This document shows positions 1 to 36,339 of a DNA stretch of 64,000 nt, piece by piece (within the stretch, counting starts at the first letter, position 1; every line of letters begins with the position of its first letter). This DNA comes from Panorpa germanica (taxonomy: Eukaryota; Arthropoda; Insecta; Mecoptera; Panorpidae): the NCBI GenBank assembly GCA_963678705.1, contig OY783214.1:6200001-6264000 (forward strand), in the 5' to 3' direction. Under the pieces are notes generated by a model. That model saw nothing but the letters and a program-made list of their open reading frames with translations, had not been told where the DNA came from and made no database searches. Both the position numbers and the translations under genes were made by a program.

Positions 1-229
1 TTGCCATCATATTGAAGATGTGTATGATTTTTTTGTCATGAAAGAGTTCATTTACAGTTCAGTTTCTCACAATCGTTCATAAGGAATGTCTATTTATCGG
101 CTACAAATGGGTAAACCACTCCACCTGTCGGAATATAAATGAAGATGAAGTTGATGCCTGCTGTAATTGGAGTGCAATAGTTATAGAAACATCACAAAAC
201 AGGACACTTCACCAAATTGTTTACTGAGT
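1..229 (+). repeat. MITE family M1 (CYCAGTAAACA ends), copy cut by window edge
   Basis: This copy shares a long stretch with copies at 21209-21418 and 41684-41915, including a TTGAAGATGYGTATGATTTT motif and the tail CCAAATTGTTTACTGAGTA. The right end reads TGTTTACTGAG, the inverse of the left end CTCAGTAAACA seen in the 41684 copy. The left end lies outside the window. No coding capacity is seen, so it is taken as a non-autonomous DNA element of unassigned superfamily. Confidence 0.6.
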
Positions 230-3150
230 ATTAATTTCGAATCGAATTTCCAATTTTTAGTTTAACTTATTGACACCACTAATTTTAATTATAATTGATA
301 TATCAATGAAATGTTCTACTTTAATAGCAATCATGTAATTAAACGTGATTATTCTTTATTAGTTCACTTCAGCTTTTCACTTCACCGTTTCATATTTTCC
401 TGCGATAAACTTATTCCGAGCTTTCCTATTTAAGCTAATTCGCTAAACCAGAAGTACTTATAAGTTCCTAACGAACTTATAAGTTCTTATGTTAAGAATT
501 AAGTCAATGTATGCTATTTCATTTTACATGAATTCTCCTACTTAGTTACTTACTTGCTTGATGTACACTTTTTAAAACTTATAATGCATTTTATTTATTT
601 TTAATTTAAAGTAATTATTATTTATAGTAGTTAAAAGTTTGCTTTATATAAACAGGGCTACCCTTTACATTTCCTTTAAGTATTTCTATTTACTCTTTTT
701 TTTACCAAAAGCTTCAGTAACTTTTGAATTAGTCTGGCCGAGACTAATTGGCAAGCGCCCAGTCTAAATAAAGTAACTATAACGAATTTAAATACAGCGG
801 GCTACACACTGGTGTCATATATTTTAATAATCATGAAATATAATTAGTATACGGCTAGGAAAACGTTCATTTATATATGCTTTTTTATTTTAATTTTTAG
901 GATATCCTAATTACTAAGATCTATCTAAATCTATCCTATATTACATCGATTCTATTATATCTATCTTATAGCTTTTATTATTCTGGTGAATTGTGTCTTT
1001 ATTCTTTTGTGTTCCAGATGGTTGTACAGTAAGCTTAACATGTTATCAAGTTTCTTAGGATCATTGGTATATTTTAGTATGAGCCTACCAATATATTTTT
1101 GCCTATACTCTTCGTTATAATGGTTTTTTATATACGCTTTATGATTATACATTCATGTAGAGTTTTTAATCTACATTAGTAGTTTTTGAATCCATTCCCA
1201 TCCCGGTACAGACTCCGCTTTGCAGGTTAGAATTAACAACCACGTGTTGCGATTCTATTATGCTGCCTATAACTATTCAATCACTATTGATAGCTCACAA
1301 TTTGTAGACATTATCTCTAACCATCTGTTGAGATCATAATCTGTAGGTTTTGACTCTGCACACATCCCGGTTCGAGTCCCAATTTGTAGGTACTTTCCAC
1401 AATTATAAGTTACAAATAACATCAGCCTCCAGTTGATGTACAATACAACAATATAGTTTCTTATGAACGAATAAACACATAATTTGGCTATTACTAGTTT
1501 AATCACTTATCAAAGTCACAATATTACATCTACATAAAGTTAATTAATCTTAATTATATTTACAACAAAATACACTAGATTAAATACGATATAGTTCTTT
1601 ACAATGTTTTACTTGTCTTTGCATTACACGCGTAATACACAGTACAATTGTCCAATAGTTAACAACACAATATTCCTAATGAAAATACACCTTAGTACTA
1701 AACATTAAATTTGCTGTCCAACTCTATTGTTTACGCTAATCACAATATCAATTATATTACACCTAGTAATTAATTCAACTATGATTTTAACACACAAAAA
1801 TAACAACCAAATGCAACTAGCATTCTTCAATCGCCATTTTTACTTCAGACTGCTTTTGCACACGACACTCTGCGTATATTTTAGCTAACGCCCTGATGTC
1901 GTCATCTTTTACAGCTAGCTAGTGAACGGCGTCCTGACCAGTTCGCTTTGGCGTTCTGCCTCGCGTTCACTTGCTTGTCTCAGCAAAGATTTACACCTAG
2001 GTTACAGTTTTCTTATTATTACTTAAAACTAAATATAATCTAACTTAATTACACCTATCTTAAAAAATAACCCCACATTCATAATAAATCAAAATATTAC
2101 AATTTTTCAAAGCGTGAAAAACTTAGATTATTATGTTTTAGCCAAAGTTGAAATGAGGTGTGTAGATGCAAAAGGATGTAAGCAACAAAAGTAAAAAACG
2201 AGTTAAAAGTTAAAATCGTATTGGCGTCTTCGTTCAGTAGGTTTTAGAATGCACGCTATATGGCAAAATCAGTCCAAGTTTTCGCTTATATCTCTGTGTC
2301 ACTACATAGTTTAGTACATCTTCTATCGTTTGCGCTGGTTATCCAAAATTTTCAACATCTGTCACTAACATCCCCTCAAATATAGATTCAAATGTATGTC
2401 AATTGAAATTACAATTACTGTAGATAGGAGATTTTGGAACTTTTAATGCGATTCTCTTAAACTTTTATCTCGGTTTCAAATTTAGAATTTTAACAATGGC
2501 GCTTCTGTAATCAAAGTTCTATATCTTATCGTATTTATACGGCACTTATAAACTATTTTATGCATGAGTCGCTGCCGAACTCTCGTAATTTGCACTATAT
2601 ACTATATCTCCTAGTTTATTTTGTACCCGTAGCTAGAGAACTAAACGTTCATTTATGTGAAAATATTTGTGTGTGAACCGACAATCATTACCAGTGCTCT
2701 AATTATAAAGTCATAAACATTTGCGAGTTATCAGATGTGATTTAAATCTAGCTTTAATTTATTCTCGTAATAACACAACAACGCATACTAATTAAGCCGC
2801 TGCAATAAAATAAACAAACCCAAATTAATTCCGTATTCGAATATCAATTTATTATGACTTTATTTTCAGGAGAACACGTATCAACAAAATTGTTGATGAC
2901 AAAAATTTATTGTTAACTGTATAGATCAGTAATTAGGTGATCTTAAGTTCTTTAAAATATGATGATGTATTGATGATTTATTAATTAATCACAATTAGTC
3001 AATTAATTATACCTTAAATAATGTTTTAGTAGTTTACCCATGCCAATATTCCGAATATTACTTTACTTATACTAATTTGAAGAAATTGAAGTTAGTAAAG
3101 TAGTTGGATTTTTTTTTGTAGGTACTTTTCCTAGAGTATTATAACATTTT
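230..3150. other. No gene recognised; AT-rich DNA
   Basis: No exon, RNA gene or transposase was recognised in this stretch. Short open frames at 961-1152 and 1273-1506 (minus) have no recognisable content. A fragment at about 2570-2595 matches one terminus of the GTTCGGCGGCGACT element at 10298-10473. Confidence 0.5.
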
Positions 3151-3174
3151 AAAATCTTGGATAGTTTTGTCAAT

Positions 3175-3475
3175 TTTTAAAGAAAATTGCCATAGTAGTA
3201 TTCATACTATTTTTTACACCACGATGAGTGAAAGTGGACTAAAAGTAACAATCTATCAAAATTTTAGAGAAAAAAATAATTTAGATTGATTTTTGTGTAA
3301 AAACTACAGACAATTTGGGATTTTTAATTGTTGTGGTGGATAGCAGTGCTACTTAGGTTGCCTATATAAAAAAAAACAGAAATATTTGAAAAATTGTGGT
3401 CATGGTTTTAAAAAACATCTTAAGGTGTGTCAATTTTCGAAAGATTTTAATTTTTTTTTGTAATTTCAAAACTCA
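3175..3475 (+). repeat. Dispersed repeat E, copy 1
   Basis: About 290 bp match 57185-57450 in the same orientation. Shared blocks include TTTTTACACCACGATGAGT, GATTGATTTTTGTGTAAAAA and AACATCTTAAGGTGT. No coding potential or clear terminal repeat is seen. The class is unknown. Confidence 0.6.
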
Positions 3476-3940
3476 TCCGATTTTAATAAACATTATAGAG
3501 CGGCGCATGATTGTATGCGATTAGATACTTTGTTCATTTTTTATTTCATGTTGTAACTTAAAATTTTATAAATAATCAATTTTATTTTTCAAACAATCTT
3601 CAATTACACAAGAAAATATTTAATTCTTTTTTCTATGTTAGTCAATACGTATTATATTTGCTTACAAGAACATATTTAGCCTCCCGGCAAAAATGCTCCA
3701 CGGAACAATTTGTTTCCCCGTAATTTTTTATATTTTGTGAAAAAAATTTAAGTAAATATATTCACAAATTGAAATTTGACTCAACAAAAAAAGTATTATT
3801 ATGCTAGTTTACTGAGGGGAGTGGTCTAAGTCCTTTAGACGAAATTATAAGATTTTGTGATAATAACATTTTTTATCTTGCTAAATTAAATTAATTAGAT
3901 TAAAACAAAATAAATTTGAATAAGACGTATTTTTATTTCA
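3476..3940. other. No feature recognised downstream of the secreted-protein gene
   Basis: AT-rich sequence between repeat E and the 3' end of the minus-strand gene. Nothing specific is seen. Confidence 0.5.
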
Positions 3941-3943
3941 AGT

Positions 3944-3949
3944 TTTATT
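3944..3949 (-). terminator. Probable polyadenylation signal AATAAA of the secreted-protein gene
   Basis: On the minus strand AATAAA occurs here, about 72 bases beyond the stop codon at 4021-4023. A second AATAAA lies at 3932-3937. Spacing suits a short 3' UTR, but the cleavage site cannot be seen. Confidence 0.5.
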
Positions 3950-4020
3950 TCAACATACAATTCACGTTTAAAGTAATACGCATAACATTTTAACAGACTG
4001 TTATAATCAGTGATTGTAGT

Positions 4021-4500
4021 TTATGCTGCTAAGCATGTTGTCACTTTTTCCTTTAGGTTATCAAGTGTCTTTCCTACCACGTCTGTAACACAAGTGGTCA
4101 CTGAGTCTGTAGCTTTAGTGGCATTTTTAGATAATAAAACTACTTGTTTAGTAATATTTTCAACAGCAGCATTTAAAGGCGTTAAATCACCTTCCTTGAT
4201 TCCCTTAGTAGCTGCATCGATGCTTTGCAGTACAGATTCCAAGATGCTTTTAATTGCATCAATTTCTGTTTTACCGCAGTCCAGAATTTTAGGAACAAGT
4301 GTGTTTTGTACCTGAGTTAACTCTTCCTTTATAGCTATCGCACATTCCTTATCTCCCAATGCTGTGACAGTAGCTATAAGTTTGTTAATAGCGTCAAGTG
4401 GATTGCTTTTAATTGATTCAAGCTCATCTAGTACACTTTGAACTGTTGCTTTGAGGTCATCGAGAACTTGTAAATCAGAATCTGATTGCGAACAATTTAT
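4021..4500 (-). CDS. Small secreted helical protein, exon 2 (last coding exon)
   Basis: This exon encodes 159 residues plus stop TAA (4021-4023) and joins in phase 0 to the signal-peptide exon at 5294-5341, giving a 175-residue precursor. The acceptor is AG at 4501-4502 after a short T-run. The mature part starts INCSQSDSDLQVLDDLKA and is almost wholly predicted helix, with heptad-like spacing of Leu/Ile/Val (KATVQSVLDELESIKS, DAIKSILESVLQSIDAATKG). Five cysteines are present, in INC, KEC, LDC and two near the C-terminus (TTCVT, TTCLAA), plus candidate N-glycosylation sites in NCS, NIT and NAT. No enzyme motif is seen. It recalls small insect secreted proteins of the DUF725/TsetseEP type, but I could not verify this, so the function is unknown. 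Confidence 0.8.
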   Translation of the reverse strand: MNCSQSDSDLQVLDDLKATVQSVLDELESIKSNPLDAINKLIATVTALGDKECAIAIKEELTQVQNTLVPKILDCGKTEIDAIKSILESVLQSIDAATKGIKEGDLTPLNAAVENITKQVVLLSKNATKATDSVTTCVTDVVGKTLDNLKEKVTTCLAA

Positions 4501-5293
4501 CTGTAAAAAAGGTGCATATCATTATTTATTACATTTTAGTTTAATGATTAATACGCTGCTGCTATAAACATGCAGATGATATTAAATAATATAAAGTTAG
4601 GAATTAATTTCGCTTGTTTTTGCATCTTTCTACTTTAAAATCAGAAATTATTTTGAAATAAGAAAATTTAATATATTTTTTATAATATTTTAAGTACAGC
4701 TTTTTTTTAAATTTCAATATAAGATGTACAAATAAATATCTAAAGAAAATTTACTGAAATTTTTTTTGAAAATGTTTGTTTTATTTATGGTTCTTTTTTA
4801 TTTACGTGAAAAAAATAATGTTAAATTTTCATTTTATTTCATAATATTTAAAATTTTAACTACGAACTTTTGTACAACACATTTTTCTCATTATCTGATT
4901 TATTTCTTTCTTAAACCTTGTAACTAATTTTGAGTTTAATTATCGATTAGAAATCTAATTATTTACTAATTTTTTATTATCTTTTCTTTAAAGTATTTTG
5001 CTATGTATTTATAAAATGAATGCGTTTACCAATTAAAGACAAAATCAATAACTAATGATTATTCTTTAAATTTATATTACGGACAAAATGCTAGTGTATA
5101 TTTAATTTAAAATAATTTAAATTATTATAAAAAATAATCATTTACTTTTAAGTTTACGAAAATAATATATTAGTATAAATTTTAAATTCTTTTATATTGT
5201 AGTTATTTTAATTAAATTTAAAAAAATCTAATGTATATCAATGTAGGTAAAGATTCACCTCCTAAGGTTTAATTAATTAAAGATTTTGCTCAC

Positions 5294-31080: not shown

Positions 31081-31374
31081 AAGATAATTTTTCCATGTGA
31101 AGTAAACCTTAACAAGAAAAAACGAGTGCCTCAAAAAGACTTCAATCGTTCTGTGGCAAAAAAGCTACTGCTGACACCAAATATCAAAAATGATTTTCTT
31201 TTTGATGGTGTAACGGATAAAGATTTTAATGAATTCAACCTACCTAAAGTATCAGGTCAACATGTTTTTATACATCAGAAAGAAAAGAAAGTTCGTCGAT
31301 GCAAATTAAGTGGTTGTGGAAAACCTACGTATTCTATGTGCAAAAAATGCACACAAAATGCTTTGATATCATGA
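31081..31374 (+). pseudogene. piggyBac-like transposase, C-terminal fragment with zinc ribbon
   Basis: An open frame from just after TAA (31078-31080) runs to TGA after ...QNALIS. It contains VSGQHVFIHQKEKKVRRC, then CKLSGCGKPTYSMCKKC. This pattern (short basic lead, then RRCxxxxC...T.YxCxxC) matches the C-terminal Cys-rich domain of piggyBac-type transposases, usually preceded by G.HFPxFI.P. The catalytic DDE core is absent upstream, where only AT-rich sequence is seen. The BEL/Pao element inserted 144 bp downstream. A captured 3' exon cannot be excluded. Confidence 0.5.
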
Positions 31375-31517: not shown

Positions 31518-31522
31518 GTTGC
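31518..31522 (+). repeat. 5-bp target-site duplication GTTGC (left)
   Basis: GTTGC precedes the 5' LTR here and follows the 3' LTR at 36335-36339. Five-base duplications are usual for BEL/Pao integrase. Confidence 0.9.
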
Positions 31523-31981
31523 TGTTCCGTCCTATATACGAGTAGCAATACACATAAGTTTTGTAATTTTAATTTTGTTTTGTTGTTAGAATAGTCAATT
31601 GATTATAAATTTTTATTCATTCTTAGACCCGGCTTGTGCTGGTTATTTTACAATTTTGATTCCATTGTTTTTATGTTTATTTTATAATTTTGACTCCATT
31701 GTACTTATGTTTTATTTTATAATTTTGATTTCATTGTACTCATGTTCTATTTAAATTAACTGTTAACTTAACTATTATATTTAAGGAAAAGGTTCATTCA
31801 TTCGTTCGTATTCATTCGTTTAGCTCAGTTGCTTGTAGTTGATAGTTCTCAATAAATCACTTTAATTTTAAACGAAAAAATATTCGTGGTTTTCTTCACA
31901 TAATTCGACATCATCGCACAATATCACACCATCATACATCCTCGCATCATAAATCGCGGTAAACTAATCGCGATTCAAACA
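31523..31981 (+). repeat. BEL/Pao element, 5' LTR (459 bp)
   Basis: It starts TGTTCCGTCC and ends GATTCAAACA, with TG/CA ends. I see no base difference from the 3' LTR at 35876-36334, which implies a recent insertion. Within it, a ~36-bp AT-rich unit (AATTTTGAYTYCATTGT...TTATTTTAT) is repeated three times (about 31651-31755). Promoter-type TATATTTAAG lies near 31777 and AATAAA at about 31850. Confidence 0.95.
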
Positions 31982-31982
31982 T

Positions 31983-32000
31983 TGGTCCTTCGAGCCGGAT
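31983..32000 (+). promoter_or_regulatory. Primer-binding site, complementary to tRNA-Tyr 3' end
   Basis: TGGTCCTTCGAGCCGGAT starts two bases after the LTR. Its complement reads ATCCGGCTCGAAGGA plus CCA, which as I recall is the 3' end of insect tRNA-Tyr (acceptor strand TCGAAGG, discriminator A). All 18 bases match that model. Confidence 0.75.
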
Positions 32001-32122
32001 AGTGAACAGTGAACCGTGATAGTAATCAGTTCATTTGTGTTACCTGCAATTGCGCAGTCATTATCAATAACTACAACAAGTGTGTATTCTCGTGAGCAGA
32101 ATAATCAGGTAGTAGAAATAAC

Positions 32123-32890
32123 TCTATTATTCGCCACCAATCAGCGTGGAATCATCTACAAGCGTTGGATCACATATATCCAGTCTATTATTCGCCACCA
32201 ATCAGCGTGGGATAATCTACAAGCGTTGGATCATATATATCCAGCCTATTATTCGCCACCAATCAGCGTGGGCATAATCTACAAGTGCTGAGATCATACA
32301 TATCCAGTCTATTATTCGCCACCAATCAGCGTGGGATAATCTACAACCGCTGGATCATCACGCATCCTGCCTATTATTCGCCACCAATCAGCGTGGAATA
32401 ATCTACAAGCGTTGGATCATATATATCCAGCCTATTATTCGCCACCAATCAGCGTGGATAATCTACAAGCGTTGGATCATATATATCCAGCCTATTATTC
32501 GCCATCAATCGGCATGGCATAATCTAGAAGCGTTGTGATCATTAAGCATCCAGCCTATTATTCGCCACCAATCAGCGTGGGATAATCTACAAGCGTTGGA
32601 TCATATATATCCAGTCTATTATTCGCCACCAATCAGCGTGGGCATAATCTACAAGCGTTGGATCATATATATCCAGCCTATTATTCGCCACCAATCAGCG
32701 TGGGATAATCTACAAGCGTTGGATCATATATATCCAGCCTATTATTCGCCACCAATCAGCGTGGGTATAATCTACAAGCGTTGGATCATCACGCATCCAG
32801 CCTATTATTCGCCACGAATCAGCGTAGGCATTATAGAACAGCGCTGGATCATCACGCATCCAGCCTATTATTCGTCATCAATCGTCATTT
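32123..32890 (+). repeat. Leader minisatellite of the BEL/Pao element, ~12.5 units of ~61 bp
   Basis: The unit is CTATTATTCGCCACCAATCA, GCGTGGGATAATCTACAAGC, GTTGGATCATATATATCCAG. Twelve full units and one decayed partial unit lie between the primer-binding site and the ORF. Each unit can fold into two small hairpins: CCAC/GTGG around CAATCAGC, and (C)TGGAT/ATCCA(G) around 7-8 loop bases. The loop of the second hairpin varies (CATATAT or CATCACGC) while the stem is largely kept. In the unit at 32490-32550 the first stem is CCAT/ATGG, a paired change. Frames read through the array are incidental. Confidence 0.9.
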
Positions 32891-33219
32891 GCAACATTGG
32901 AAACTATTCATCTTGTGAGAAACAACTACATCAATCGTGTGCAATCAAACATTTTTTATGCAAAGAATTATACAAATAGCACATCATCAATTGTATAATC
33001 ATAACCGGAGTGACGTTCTTCATTGAAACTTCAAATCGTCTTCACTGCGGATACAGAACAATACATCAACGTGATCAAGTAAGTCAGGTGATTCACCAAT
33101 AATCCTTGGCAACTTATTTAATTCCGAACAATTACTCCTCCTATTTTCCCAATTCGCCAATTATCCTAGCATTTGGTCGTACATCTTTTTACTTTTAACA
33201 AAATTCCCATTATTTAATA

Positions 33220-35838
33220 ATGGCTGAAGGGCAAGTTAGACTTTTAAAGATCAAACGCGCGACTGCAAAACGAGCTCTAACATCATTCGTGAACCTTCTT
33301 AATAATGATTCGGAAGAGTATTCTTGTATGTTAAAAAGTATATACGACGAGATAAAGCAAACGCGTGAAAAATTATTAGCATATCAAGACGAGATAGACT
33401 TATTGGTAGCGGATGAGGAAGGATGTGTTCCGGAGGAACAGTATCAATATAGGGATGAGTTTGAGGATCAGTATTGGAAAGCATGCGATAAGGCCACTAG
33501 AATTTTAGATTCGCGAAAAACAAATTCTCCCAACCCATCTGGTTCTAGGGTATCCACTGCTAGTAGTATTATGGGAACACCGGTATTATCAACGTATAAT
33601 CAAGGCCTAGAATCATTGAGCAACAGTCCTCAGACCCAAAATCAATTGAATAGTTCACCACCCGTGCATAGTAATCAATTAGCCGGGCACATTGATACAC
33701 CTACATCACCTGCTAATGATATTGATACAGAATCAGTATCTCACTCGGAGATACCTGAATTTAACCACAACTTACAGACTCGCATACCTGTCGAAACCTT
33801 ATTAGCTACTGCCATAGTGGATCTTACAAATCCGGAAGGTATCGCAGAAACTCATAACAAGGTTGCTTCAGACGTTGGCTCTCAGGATCGTTCTACAACT
33901 GAAGTCACGGCTAAGGTTTTAAGGCCTGACCGAACTGAAGTTACCATTTCGGTCAGCGGCAATAATATAAAATATAGCACTCCTGCTGCTATAAAATCAT
34001 TAGGTAATAGACCTCCATTTTTCGACAACTCACTTGAGTTTTATTTTGATCAAGAATCGCTACGGTTCAAGCGCTGCATCACGGTAGCCGAACCCAAAAA
34101 TATTCCTTTACATAATATTTGTGATACAGGCCAGAAAGCATATGGCGCCTGTAGTTACCTACGATCTGTAGATAAACATGATAAGGTTCGTGGTCATTTA
34201 ATTTGTTCCAAATCTCGTGTGGCTCCCGTGAGCTCCATTTCATTACAGCGTCTAGCGCTCCGCGACGCCCTTCTGTTTGCTCGATTTTTTACCGTAAAAA
34301 TCACGCTATTAAATACTAGTGACTACCTTGTCTTGCGGTGTAATTCTACTCTAGGATTACATTGGTTCAAAACTTATCTACATCGCACACAACCATTTGG
34401 TAATAAACACGTCGCCAAACTACAGCGACTAACCGCCACGTGTCCTTGTCAACACGTTGCGTCACTCAACAAACCCGCGAATCTAGACTCTCGCGGTCTG
34501 TTTCATTCGGAATATATTGCAGGAAAACTATGGCGGCATAAACCTCCGTGGCTATTAAGGCCTCAGAGTCCATGGCCCAAAACAATTTTATCGAGCATTG
34601 AGCTTCCTGCTTTAAAAACATACGAACTTCCTAATTCCAACTACCTAAAGGTACAATCGCGAGTATTAGAGCCACTTGAAAAATATTCAGCGCTGGACAA
34701 ACCTACCCGTATTGTTACATACCTCAATCATGTCATTAATAATCCGCGATGCTTTAATTCACAGCGAACTAATAGCATTTTATCGTTTTCGGGAAAGGTA
34801 ACAGTCCGCTATACTATTATTAAAATAATACAATTATCCGCCTTTTCAGCGAAAATAAATCAATTACGCAAGGGGATACCTATTCCTGAAAACAGTCGTT
34901 TAATGCCGATTAACCCGTTTTTCGATGCTACGGGTAGTAGTCGTGTAGGTGACAATTTTACTCTCGCTGGTTTACCTGATATTCATCATTCACATATACA
35001 TATTTATTCATATACTATCACGCAAACTATTATACGACCGGAGCATGTTCAGCTCAATCATGCCGGTATTCCAACAACTGTATATTCCGTGCGTCAAACT
35101 CCTTGGCCTCAGGACCGTCGTAGCATTACGCGAAAAATCATACACCAATGTGTGATCTGTTTTCGAGCCAAGCCTCGTCTCACACACCACATTATGGGAG
35201 ATCCTCCGCCATACCGATTAACACAAACCTGTCCGTTGCTTCGCGTCGGGTTCAAACATACTAAATCGTTGCATATTATAAAAAGACGACATCGTCATCG
35301 TCAGAGCTTAAGTGTTTATAGGGCAAATCACGAACTCAATGAAGCGCATTTTAAGAAACACTTGACGCTCACCCTAGGTACTACTCATTTTCCGTATGAG
35401 CCATTAAATACTTATGCAGTTGAGATCCAAGCCATATTAAATTCTCGTTCCATATGTCCCTTGGCTCCTGACCCGCATAATATTGTTCCTTTTACACCAT
35501 ACCATTTTCCTATTGGTGGTCCACTGACAAGCTTTCCTCAAACTGATTGGACTAGCACCAGCTCCAGCTCCAGCCAGATGCCTGTTTTTCAACACGCACA
35601 GCAGATCACGCAACATTTTTGGAAGCAGTGGTACCTTTGTCAATTAATTACGCGGTCATCTCAGCAATGGAAATCACCGAATCTAACGGTCGGCAAACTA
35701 CTCTTGATTGGAGAAGACACACCTCCTCTCCTTCAATGGCTGCTAGGACGTGTAATTAAAATTCATGCAAAATATATGCTGCAACACTTAAACTGCTTCA
35801 ATGGGAAATTGCATCGCAACAAAGGACTCCACAAATAA
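33220..35838 (+). CDS. BEL/Pao-derived fused ORF: Gag-like N-terminus joined to decayed RNase H and integrase; no reverse transcriptase
   Basis: One open frame of 872 codons. Residues 1-100 are Gag-like and helical (LKIKRATAKRALTSFVNLLN is a typical Pao-group start), and about 100-190 is Ser/Pro/Asn-rich. No protease or reverse-transcriptase palm motif (YxDD) is present. From about 300, DTGQKAYGACSYLRS and LICSKSRVAPV match the RNase H domain; its Glu region is LALRDALL (usually LELxxALL) and the Asp region is CNST (usually xDST), so two catalytic acids are lost. NPFFDATGSSRVG (near 567) and HAGIPTTVYSVRQ...CVICF (614-648) match the integrase linker and HHCC region. The DDE core is mostly missing. 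LNSRSICPLAPDP (740) and LTVGKLLLIGED (822) match the C-terminal part. Probably made only as a Gag-like protein and mobilised in trans. Confidence 0.85.
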   Translation: MAEGQVRLLKIKRATAKRALTSFVNLLNNDSEEYSCMLKSIYDEIKQTREKLLAYQDEIDLLVADEEGCVPEEQYQYRDEFEDQYWKACDKATRILDSRKTNSPNPSGSRVSTASSIMGTPVLSTYNQGLESLSNSPQTQNQLNSSPPVHSNQLAGHIDTPTSPANDIDTESVSHSEIPEFNHNLQTRIPVETLLATAIVDLTNPEGIAETHNKVASDVGSQDRSTTEVTAKVLRPDRTEVTISVSGNNIKYSTPAAIKSLGNRPPFFDNSLEFYFDQESLRFKRCITVAEPKNIPLHNICDTGQKAYGACSYLRSVDKHDKVRGHLICSKSRVAPVSSISLQRLALRDALLFARFFTVKITLLNTSDYLVLRCNSTLGLHWFKTYLHRTQPFGNKHVAKLQRLTATCPCQHVASLNKPANLDSRGLFHSEYIAGKLWRHKPPWLLRPQSPWPKTILSSIELPALKTYELPNSNYLKVQSRVLEPLEKYSALDKPTRIVTYLNHVINNPRCFNSQRTNSILSFSGKVTVRYTIIKIIQLSAFSAKINQLRKGIPIPENSRLMPINPFFDATGSSRVGDNFTLAGLPDIHHSHIHIYSYTITQTIIRPEHVQLNHAGIPTTVYSVRQTPWPQDRRSITRKIIHQCVICFRAKPRLTHHIMGDPPPYRLTQTCPLLRVGFKHTKSLHIIKRRHRHRQSLSVYRANHELNEAHFKKHLTLTLGTTHFPYEPLNTYAVEIQAILNSRSICPLAPDPHNIVPFTPYHFPIGGPLTSFPQTDWTSTSSSSSQMPVFQHAQQITQHFWKQWYLCQLITRSSQQWKSPNLTVGKLLLIGEDTPPLLQWLLGRVIKIHAKYMLQHLNCFNGKLHRNKGLHK

Positions 35839-35857
35839 TAAACTTTGAACTACAGAT

Positions 35858-35875
35858 AGTTCAAGGCGGGCTGTA
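35858..35875 (+). promoter_or_regulatory. Polypurine-tract region of the BEL/Pao element
   Basis: AGTTCAAGGCGGGCTGTA lies directly before the 3' LTR. AAGGCGGG is the most purine-rich word and sits where plus-strand priming is expected. It is short and ends in CTGTA, so the exact tract is uncertain. Confidence 0.45.
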
Positions 35876-36334
35876 TGTTCCGTCCTATATACGAGTAGCA
35901 ATACACATAAGTTTTGTAATTTTAATTTTGTTTTGTTGTTAGAATAGTCAATTGATTATAAATTTTTATTCATTCTTAGACCCGGCTTGTGCTGGTTATT
36001 TTACAATTTTGATTCCATTGTTTTTATGTTTATTTTATAATTTTGACTCCATTGTACTTATGTTTTATTTTATAATTTTGATTTCATTGTACTCATGTTC
36101 TATTTAAATTAACTGTTAACTTAACTATTATATTTAAGGAAAAGGTTCATTCATTCGTTCGTATTCATTCGTTTAGCTCAGTTGCTTGTAGTTGATAGTT
36201 CTCAATAAATCACTTTAATTTTAAACGAAAAAATATTCGTGGTTTTCTTCACATAATTCGACATCATCGCACAATATCACACCATCATACATCCTCGCAT
36301 CATAAATCGCGGTAAACTAATCGCGATTCAAACA
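35876..36334 (+). repeat. BEL/Pao element, 3' LTR (459 bp)
   Basis: It has the same length and, by direct reading, the same sequence as the 5' LTR. It ends AAACA and is followed by GTTGC (36335-36339), the right copy of the target-site duplication. Confidence 0.95.
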
Positions 36335-36339
36335 GTTGC

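Follow-up and report, generated by a model that had tools for sequence, protein, structure and literature searches.

A BEL/Pao family without reverse transcriptase in Panorpa germanica whose long fused frame appears to be kept open while its amino acids drift

INTRODUCTION

Why should a retrotransposon that has lost its own enzymes keep a long fused frame open? The question is raised by a locus of the insect Panorpa germanica (Mecoptera). The window analysed here is the whole 64,000-nucleotide stretch at positions 6,200,001 to 6,264,000 of contig OY783214.1 in assembly GCA_963678705.1 (C11:6200001-6264000), and its positions 31523-36334 are a complete and very recent BEL/Pao insertion without reverse transcriptase (RT). 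No other open reading frame (ORF) in the window approaches the 872 codons of the insertion's own, the runner-up having 152. A sequence-only reading of this DNA had described a non-autonomous lineage that keeps an open fused frame, and had offered selection on the protein as one of two possible reasons. What is new here is a set of 18 open frames whose missense share is neutral but which hold no stop codon. This suggests that being translated, rather than yielding one particular protein product, aids the spread of the element.

RESULTS

The element is present in at least 20 complete copies

The assembly (464 Mb, 249 contigs) was searched with the long terminal repeat (LTR) and with the protein of the ORF. 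It also gave 145 matches to the odorant-receptor family 7tm_6, many of them clustered in a single block on C11, as fits an insect. For the LTR, 40 of 178 candidates were scored (identity at least 88%), and for the protein 52 of 2060; copy numbers are lower bounds. The 40 scored LTR matches are both LTRs of 19 copies and one LTR each of loci L049 and L050. L049 was counted as complete on account of a second LTR, 82-85% identical to that of the window, and an AATAC duplication, and L050, which is internally deleted and has one LTR, was left out of the count. The results showed at least 20 complete copies, all with perfect 5-bp target duplications, and 19 of the 20 are open. None of them retains the capsid, the zinc knuckles, RT or the core of the integrase. 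The protein search gave at least 20 rows spanning amino acids (aa) 1-872, 19 of them stop-free. The 19 complete copies measured are 4.6-5.4 kb long, and the LTR pairs of 19 copies have no differing column in nine cases, one in six, and 2, 4, 6 and 18 in the others. The family has transposed recently and in multiple copies without enzymes of its own, as a trans-mobilised element does.

These data, together with older copies that are alike where read, bear out the non-autonomous lineage with an open fused frame that the sequence-only reading had proposed. With at least 20 complete copies, the insertion is not single; the 40 scored LTR matches lie in RT-less copies and one internally deleted copy, not in intact elements with the same LTR; and the catalytic changes described below are not assembly errors, because they are shared between several loci.

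Two insertions with perfect target duplications, L044 and L049 with L072, have clearly unlike 5′ and 3′ LTRs (18 differing columns in L044; 82-85% versus 96% identity to the window LTR in L049 with L072), which suggests gene conversion or unusual strand transfer. At C5:16250795-16269534, four similar RT-less fragments are spaced by 5.7-6.1 kb, probably a segmental tandem duplication.

Stop codons are absent from open frames that change nearly neutrally

The 18 open ORFs used for the tests leave out L044, whose frame is broken, and L049, for which the first list held one LTR. The result showed 153 changes, comprising 112 missense (N), 41 silent (S) and no nonsense changes. The missense share of 0.73 equals the neutral expectation of 0.73, and 7.0 stops were expected (transitions weighted 2). 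When the same changes were read in the other five frames, stop-changing events numbered 9, 14, 21, 16 and 18, compared to 0 in the true frame, where 6.7 were expected. Counted in two other ways, the same ORFs have 116 N : 37 S or 108 N : 36 S, and in the pol remnant of the 18 copies the count was 106 N : 40 S, a share again equal to the neutral expectation. All four ORF indels in open copies are of 6 nt, and seven of nine LTR indels are not multiples of three.

A comparison with five old, decayed RT-less copies (L052 and L059 left out) pointed the same way. The private changes of the old copies comprise 142 N, 72 S and 15 stops (229 in total), and those of 20 young copies, L044 and L049 included, comprise 112 N, 39 S and no stop (151 in total). 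The young copies thus differ in stops (Fisher P = 0.0006, L060 left out; with L060 the young counts become 124 N, 43 S and 2 stops), and their N:S is not lower (P = 0.13). Only 13 N : 4 S are fixed differences between young and old copies, and a further 73 columns are ambiguous. Divergence of the RNase H-integrase part from the RT-bearing relative L051 is 0.258 at nonsynonymous (dN) and 0.544 at synonymous sites (dS). With L061 as outgroup, the residues unique to one lineage number 62 for the RT-less and 10 for the RT-bearing one, which converts to an omega of about 0.8 and about 0.13, respectively; on the RT-less branch since the split, about 11 stops are expected (6.6 if missense changes are split evenly) and none is seen. 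By these counts, selection appears to act on the open frame far more than on the amino acids.

A number of observations weigh against this reading. The branch split uses one distant outgroup, with 246 columns uninformative. Pairwise pN/pS (NG86), a cruder estimate, averages 0.75 among the 18 ORFs, not 1, and is 0.74 for Gag and 0.76 for the rest when the two are taken separately, as the sequence-only reading had advised. Two stretches, aa 279-331 and aa 597-649, give hints of constraint on the amino acids. The ratio to L051 is 0.16 at aa 279-331, where the copies show 4 N : 5 S (P 0.06); it is 0.34 at aa 597-649 and 0.26 over the integrase C-terminal part, yet the counts among copies there are 8 N : 2 S and 13 N : 3 S. 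The Gag N-terminus has a ratio of 0.20 against the RT-bearing relative L055, and its 7 changes among copies are too few to judge. The complete copy L044 carries a 166-nt frame-breaking deletion, and L060, whose LTRs are not among the 40 scored, has two stops. The changes are not independent, because the copies are related and mosaic. For the close RT-bearing relative, no full-length frame was found among the matches listed, the longest having 1390 codons (L055). On balance, the proposal of selection on the protein is poorly supported, with missense change near neutral and stops and frame-breaking indels avoided.

The RT-less lineage is old and has recombined with RT-bearing relatives

Five older loci (L053, L054, L056, L057 and L058) are continuous across the Gag and RT junctions just as the window copy is. 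They are 91-95% identical to the window in the compared part, and each has 1-5 stops as well as indels. Wherever these decayed copies were read they have the same deletions, and the RT-less lineage is therefore an old one. In L052 and L059, the same remnant follows a Gag piece that is longer and helper-like, so fusion with RT-bearing Gag would have occurred more than once.

The RT-bearing relatives have about 59% aa identity in the pol remnant. A search with a 166-aa RT query (150 of 955 candidates scored) found at least 21 loci (22 rows) at 80% identity or more over all or part of the query length, and two copies, L051 and L055, were read. The L051 frame contains the RT motif YVDD; its LTRs are 92% alike and it has an insertion inside. 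L055 is without its 3′ end, and in its Pfam scan DUF1759 and a full Peptidase_A17 passed their cut-offs, and two domains narrowly missed theirs, RVT_1 with 28.5 bits (cut-off 29.6) and DUF1758 with 18.7 (cut-off 22). Within L051, positions 4094-5017 hold a 307-aa frame that we take to resemble a Helitron helicase-like domain.

In four tiles of leader and Gag (element 1512-2111), the window copy is 94-99% identical to L051/L055 and 72-81% to L053/L054, whereas in the pol remnant its identity is 89-98% to L053/L054 and 69-81% to L051/L055, apart from 44 bases of the last tile, where it reaches 86% to L051/L055. The switch marks a recombination tract, which would imply past co-packaging with RT-bearing relatives; the element may have been moved by an intact relative, as the sequence-only reading had it. 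The window copy is also a mosaic among the young copies: element 2298-2897 is identical to many copies, and at element 3198-3497 there is 1 difference to L048 versus 26 to the copies that match at 2298-2897.

The primer-binding site (PBS) is TTGGTCCTTCGATAGCCA in 18 of the 20 complete copies and in both RT-bearing relatives read. In the window copy and L037 it is TGGTCCTTCGAGCCGGAT, which is also the PBS of an unrelated, active-looking BEL family, and it may have been recopied from a tRNA primer. The source is presumably tRNA-Tyr, which a search did not confirm: a two-ended pattern had no match in the genome, and a 16-base pattern had 78 sites, with no tRNA at the six scanned by a program set for bacterial genes. 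The two sites inspected in sequence resemble PBSs of other BEL elements.

Four in-frame losses shaped the 872-codon frame

The insertion has the LTRs, 5-bp target duplication, PBS and polypurine tract (PPT) of a BEL/Pao LTR retrotransposon, as well as the Pao-type domains Peptidase_A17 and DUF5641, and it is homologous to a relative in which Gag, protease, RT and RNase H are all present (Table 1). It does not have the RT and integrase catalytic core of an autonomous element and is classed as a non-autonomous derivative. The two LTRs do not differ at any position, and here as in the GTTGC flanks, the PBS and the single long frame, the sequence-only reading held.

Table 1 Features of the insertion in the window
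Feature	Positions	Strand	Remark
5′ target-site duplication	31518..31522	.	GTTGC
5′ LTR	31523..31981	+	459 bp, same sequence as 3′ LTR
Leader	31982..33219	+	1238 nt
PBS	31983..32000	+	TGGTCCTTCGAGCCGGAT
61-bp tandem array	32124..32883	+	12.3 units
Open frame	33220..35838	+	872 codons incl. stop
Gag N-terminal part, aa 1-157	33220..33690	+	96% DNA identity to L055, dN/dS 0.20
Protease-region remnant, aa 158-274	33691..34041	+	capsid and zinc knuckles deleted in frame immediately upstream
RNase H to integrase N-terminal part, aa 279-704	34054..35331	+	RT deleted in frame immediately upstream
Integrase C-terminal part / DUF5641, aa 711-850	35350..35769	+	DDE core deleted in frame upstream
PPT	35863..35875	+	AAGGCGGGCTGTA
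3′ LTR	35876..36334	+	459 bp
3′ target-site duplication	36335..36339	.	GTTGC

A Pfam scan of the 872-codon frame found Peptidase_A17 (aa 276-359, E 6.6e-15), DUF5641 (aa 790-850, E 3.3e-11) and, below its cut-off, Integrase_H2C2 (aa 601-653), and no match to RT; a Protein Data Bank search gave nothing credible (best E 0.15). The anatomy of the frame was read against L051 and L055. The frame is without capsid, zinc knuckles and RT, and both RT and the DDE core fall in deletions relative to L051. The integrase core was lost through two in-frame deletions, which makes four losses in total, all of which preserve the frame. The absence of RT and of most of the DDE core, both claimed before, was thereby confirmed. 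The fusion of a Gag start to RNase H and integrase was also seen correctly, but the protease-region remnant between them had been overlooked, and Gag amounts to the first 157 aa only.

In RNase H, the first Asp is retained and three of four acids are replaced compared to L051: Glu to Ala at aa 346, Asp to Asn at aa 375 and Asp to Asn at aa 421. The sequence-only reading had both of the former and omitted the last. The changes at aa 346 and aa 421 are present in 18 of 18 open copies. Six of seven older copies have Ala at aa 346 and one has Val, and aa 421 is Asn in all five that are readable there. The change at aa 375 is younger, because Asn occurs in only 12 of the 18 open copies and all six readable older copies have Asp. 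In the integrase, the first Asp of the DDE triad is substituted and the second Asp and the Glu disappeared when the core was deleted. The window copy has the full set of HHCC ligands; the first His is found in 17 of the 18 copies and the other ligands in all of them.

The leader is poor in ATG and carries a tandem array

The window leader has 2 ATGs where base composition predicts about 18 and a first-order Markov model about 25, and the 19 leaders measured have 2-4 versus 15-26 expected by composition. ATG occurs in 11 of 112 units of the 61-bp array, and the scarcity is suggestive only, because the array amplifies an ATG-poor unit.

The array, which the sequence-only reading had overlooked, occurs wherever the leader of an RT-less copy was inspected and is absent from L051 and L055. 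A search gave 259 matches at 39 candidate places, of which those listed are RT-less loci with the exception of two, C135 (L064) and C1:5359 kb (L065); in the 2 kb read at each of these, there is an LTR, the array and a Gag start. The array was thus rejected as a host satellite. RNA structure in the array was also rejected, because single units fold at best slightly more stably than their shuffled versions (z from +0.1 to -2.0), as was a packaging signal, one compensatory pair in two small hairpins being too little to claim. In L063, positions 57-4053, the leader of an old relative has an array that extends over some 4 kb, with 63 units each 63 bp long.

Just upstream of the element, positions 31126-31374 of the window hold an 82-aa frame that resembles the end of a DNA-transposon transposase. 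We take it to be piggyBac-like; its sole Pfam match is a Tc5 C-terminal domain, below cut-off.

DISCUSSION

The explanation that we favour, and think somewhat probable, is that this is a non-autonomous BEL/Pao family, mobilised in trans, whose own RNA must be translated through the long open frame for efficient copying. RT and integrase would be supplied in trans by a BEL element elsewhere in the genome, and translation of the element's own RNA would act in cis. An early stop might expose the RNA to nonsense-mediated decay, or the nascent Gag N-terminus might tether the translated RNA to assembling particles. The narrower proposal that openness alone is selected, passage of the ribosome after the Gag N-terminal domain being the trait and the downstream polypeptide ballast, is plausible, though we think it somewhat less likely than not.

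Two other accounts of the open frame have to be weighed against translation in cis. The protein itself may matter, the Gag N-terminus with its long tail entering helper particles as a structural co-factor and giving preference there to its own RNA. Of the tail, only loose properties such as length, solubility or a zinc-finger core would then be required. The low ratio of the Gag N-terminus to L055, the joint re-acquisition of this part and the leader from RT-bearing elements, the nearly complete HHCC ligands in 18 copies, the low ratios to L051 at aa 279-331 and aa 597-649 and the pairwise average of 0.75 all speak for such a role. The pol remnant nevertheless has a neutral N share, N:S is not below that of the dead copies, and the HHCC stretch itself shows 8 N : 2 S among copies, so that we regard this role as rather unlikely. 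The open frame could also be a by-product of youth, the copies having come too recently from few masters for stops to arise. The other complete copies are indeed only 24-46 bases away from the window ORF (94 for L046) out of 2616 and are related through recombination, but 153 distinct changes include no stop, with the other five frames as an internal control, and the RT-less structure predates copies that are 5-9% diverged, on a branch that should hold about 7-11 stops. This makes youth an improbable explanation.

Capture of the element by the insect as a host gene or restriction factor would fit the lost catalytic residues and the open frame. It was rejected, and appears extremely improbable, because the element sits at 20 or more scattered sites, with target duplications and, for the most part, nearly identical LTRs, and because its amino acids change in a near-neutral way. 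A different matter, compatible with the favoured explanation, is which element does the mobilising. An unrelated BEL family, with about 48% RT identity, has many open frames of 1699 codons among the matches listed. In one of its copies, which shares its PBS type with the window copy, the LTRs are 99.85% identical, and the close RT-bearing family looks dead in both copies read. The two stretches compared, however, share no DNA similarity with the element outside the PBS region, and the past recombination partner was the close RT-bearing family. We consider the unrelated family a real candidate for the mobiliser, yet would not name it as the probable one.

The closest precedent for the cis-translation reading, by analogy, would be the mouse IAP type I-delta-1 (1Δ1), which, in passages of PMC6466679 and PMC7411935, has an internal gag/pol deletion that creates one fusion ORF, depends on Gag and Pol supplied in trans and makes a fusion protein reported to be helpful in cis. 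The Panorpa element likewise keeps an in-frame fusion ORF open. It is an insect BEL/Pao element and not an endogenous retrovirus, has four separate in-frame losses, capsid included, as well as a 61-bp leader array, and combines nearly neutral amino-acid drift with an exclusion of stops. Among BEL elements, Bel-21_AG (cluster 185) of Anopheles gambiae looks like the closest parallel. In the passages on it in PMC3212995, it is non-autonomous, with three sequences of 3803 nt, identical LTRs and an expressed 927-codon ORF whose dN and dS do not differ; that ORF is reported there to be without conserved domains, unlike the Panorpa frame with its Pao-type domains, and those passages cover neither stop avoidance nor a helper nor recombination. 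A search of the literature for stop-free yet neutral BEL frames found only Bel-21_AG to come close; PMC3442997 contributed nothing to the comparison. A search for frame selection in defective interfering RNAs turned up titles of references and no usable precedent. The TR-GAG elements of plants are non-autonomous LTR elements that retain a Gag frame, whereas the Panorpa element keeps only the first 157 aa of Gag, fused to pol remnants.

Within this one family, selection for translation can be distinguished from selection for a protein, the controls being built in as the other frames, the dead relatives and the RT-bearing lineage. The family provides an invertebrate, non-retroviral case alongside mouse I-delta-1, and why defective retroelements retain long fused frames becomes testable. 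If openness alone is what is selected, the length of translation would serve as a replication signal in cis, and this element, perhaps with Bel-21_AG, would belong to a recognisable class of non-autonomous elements whose long frames are neutral.

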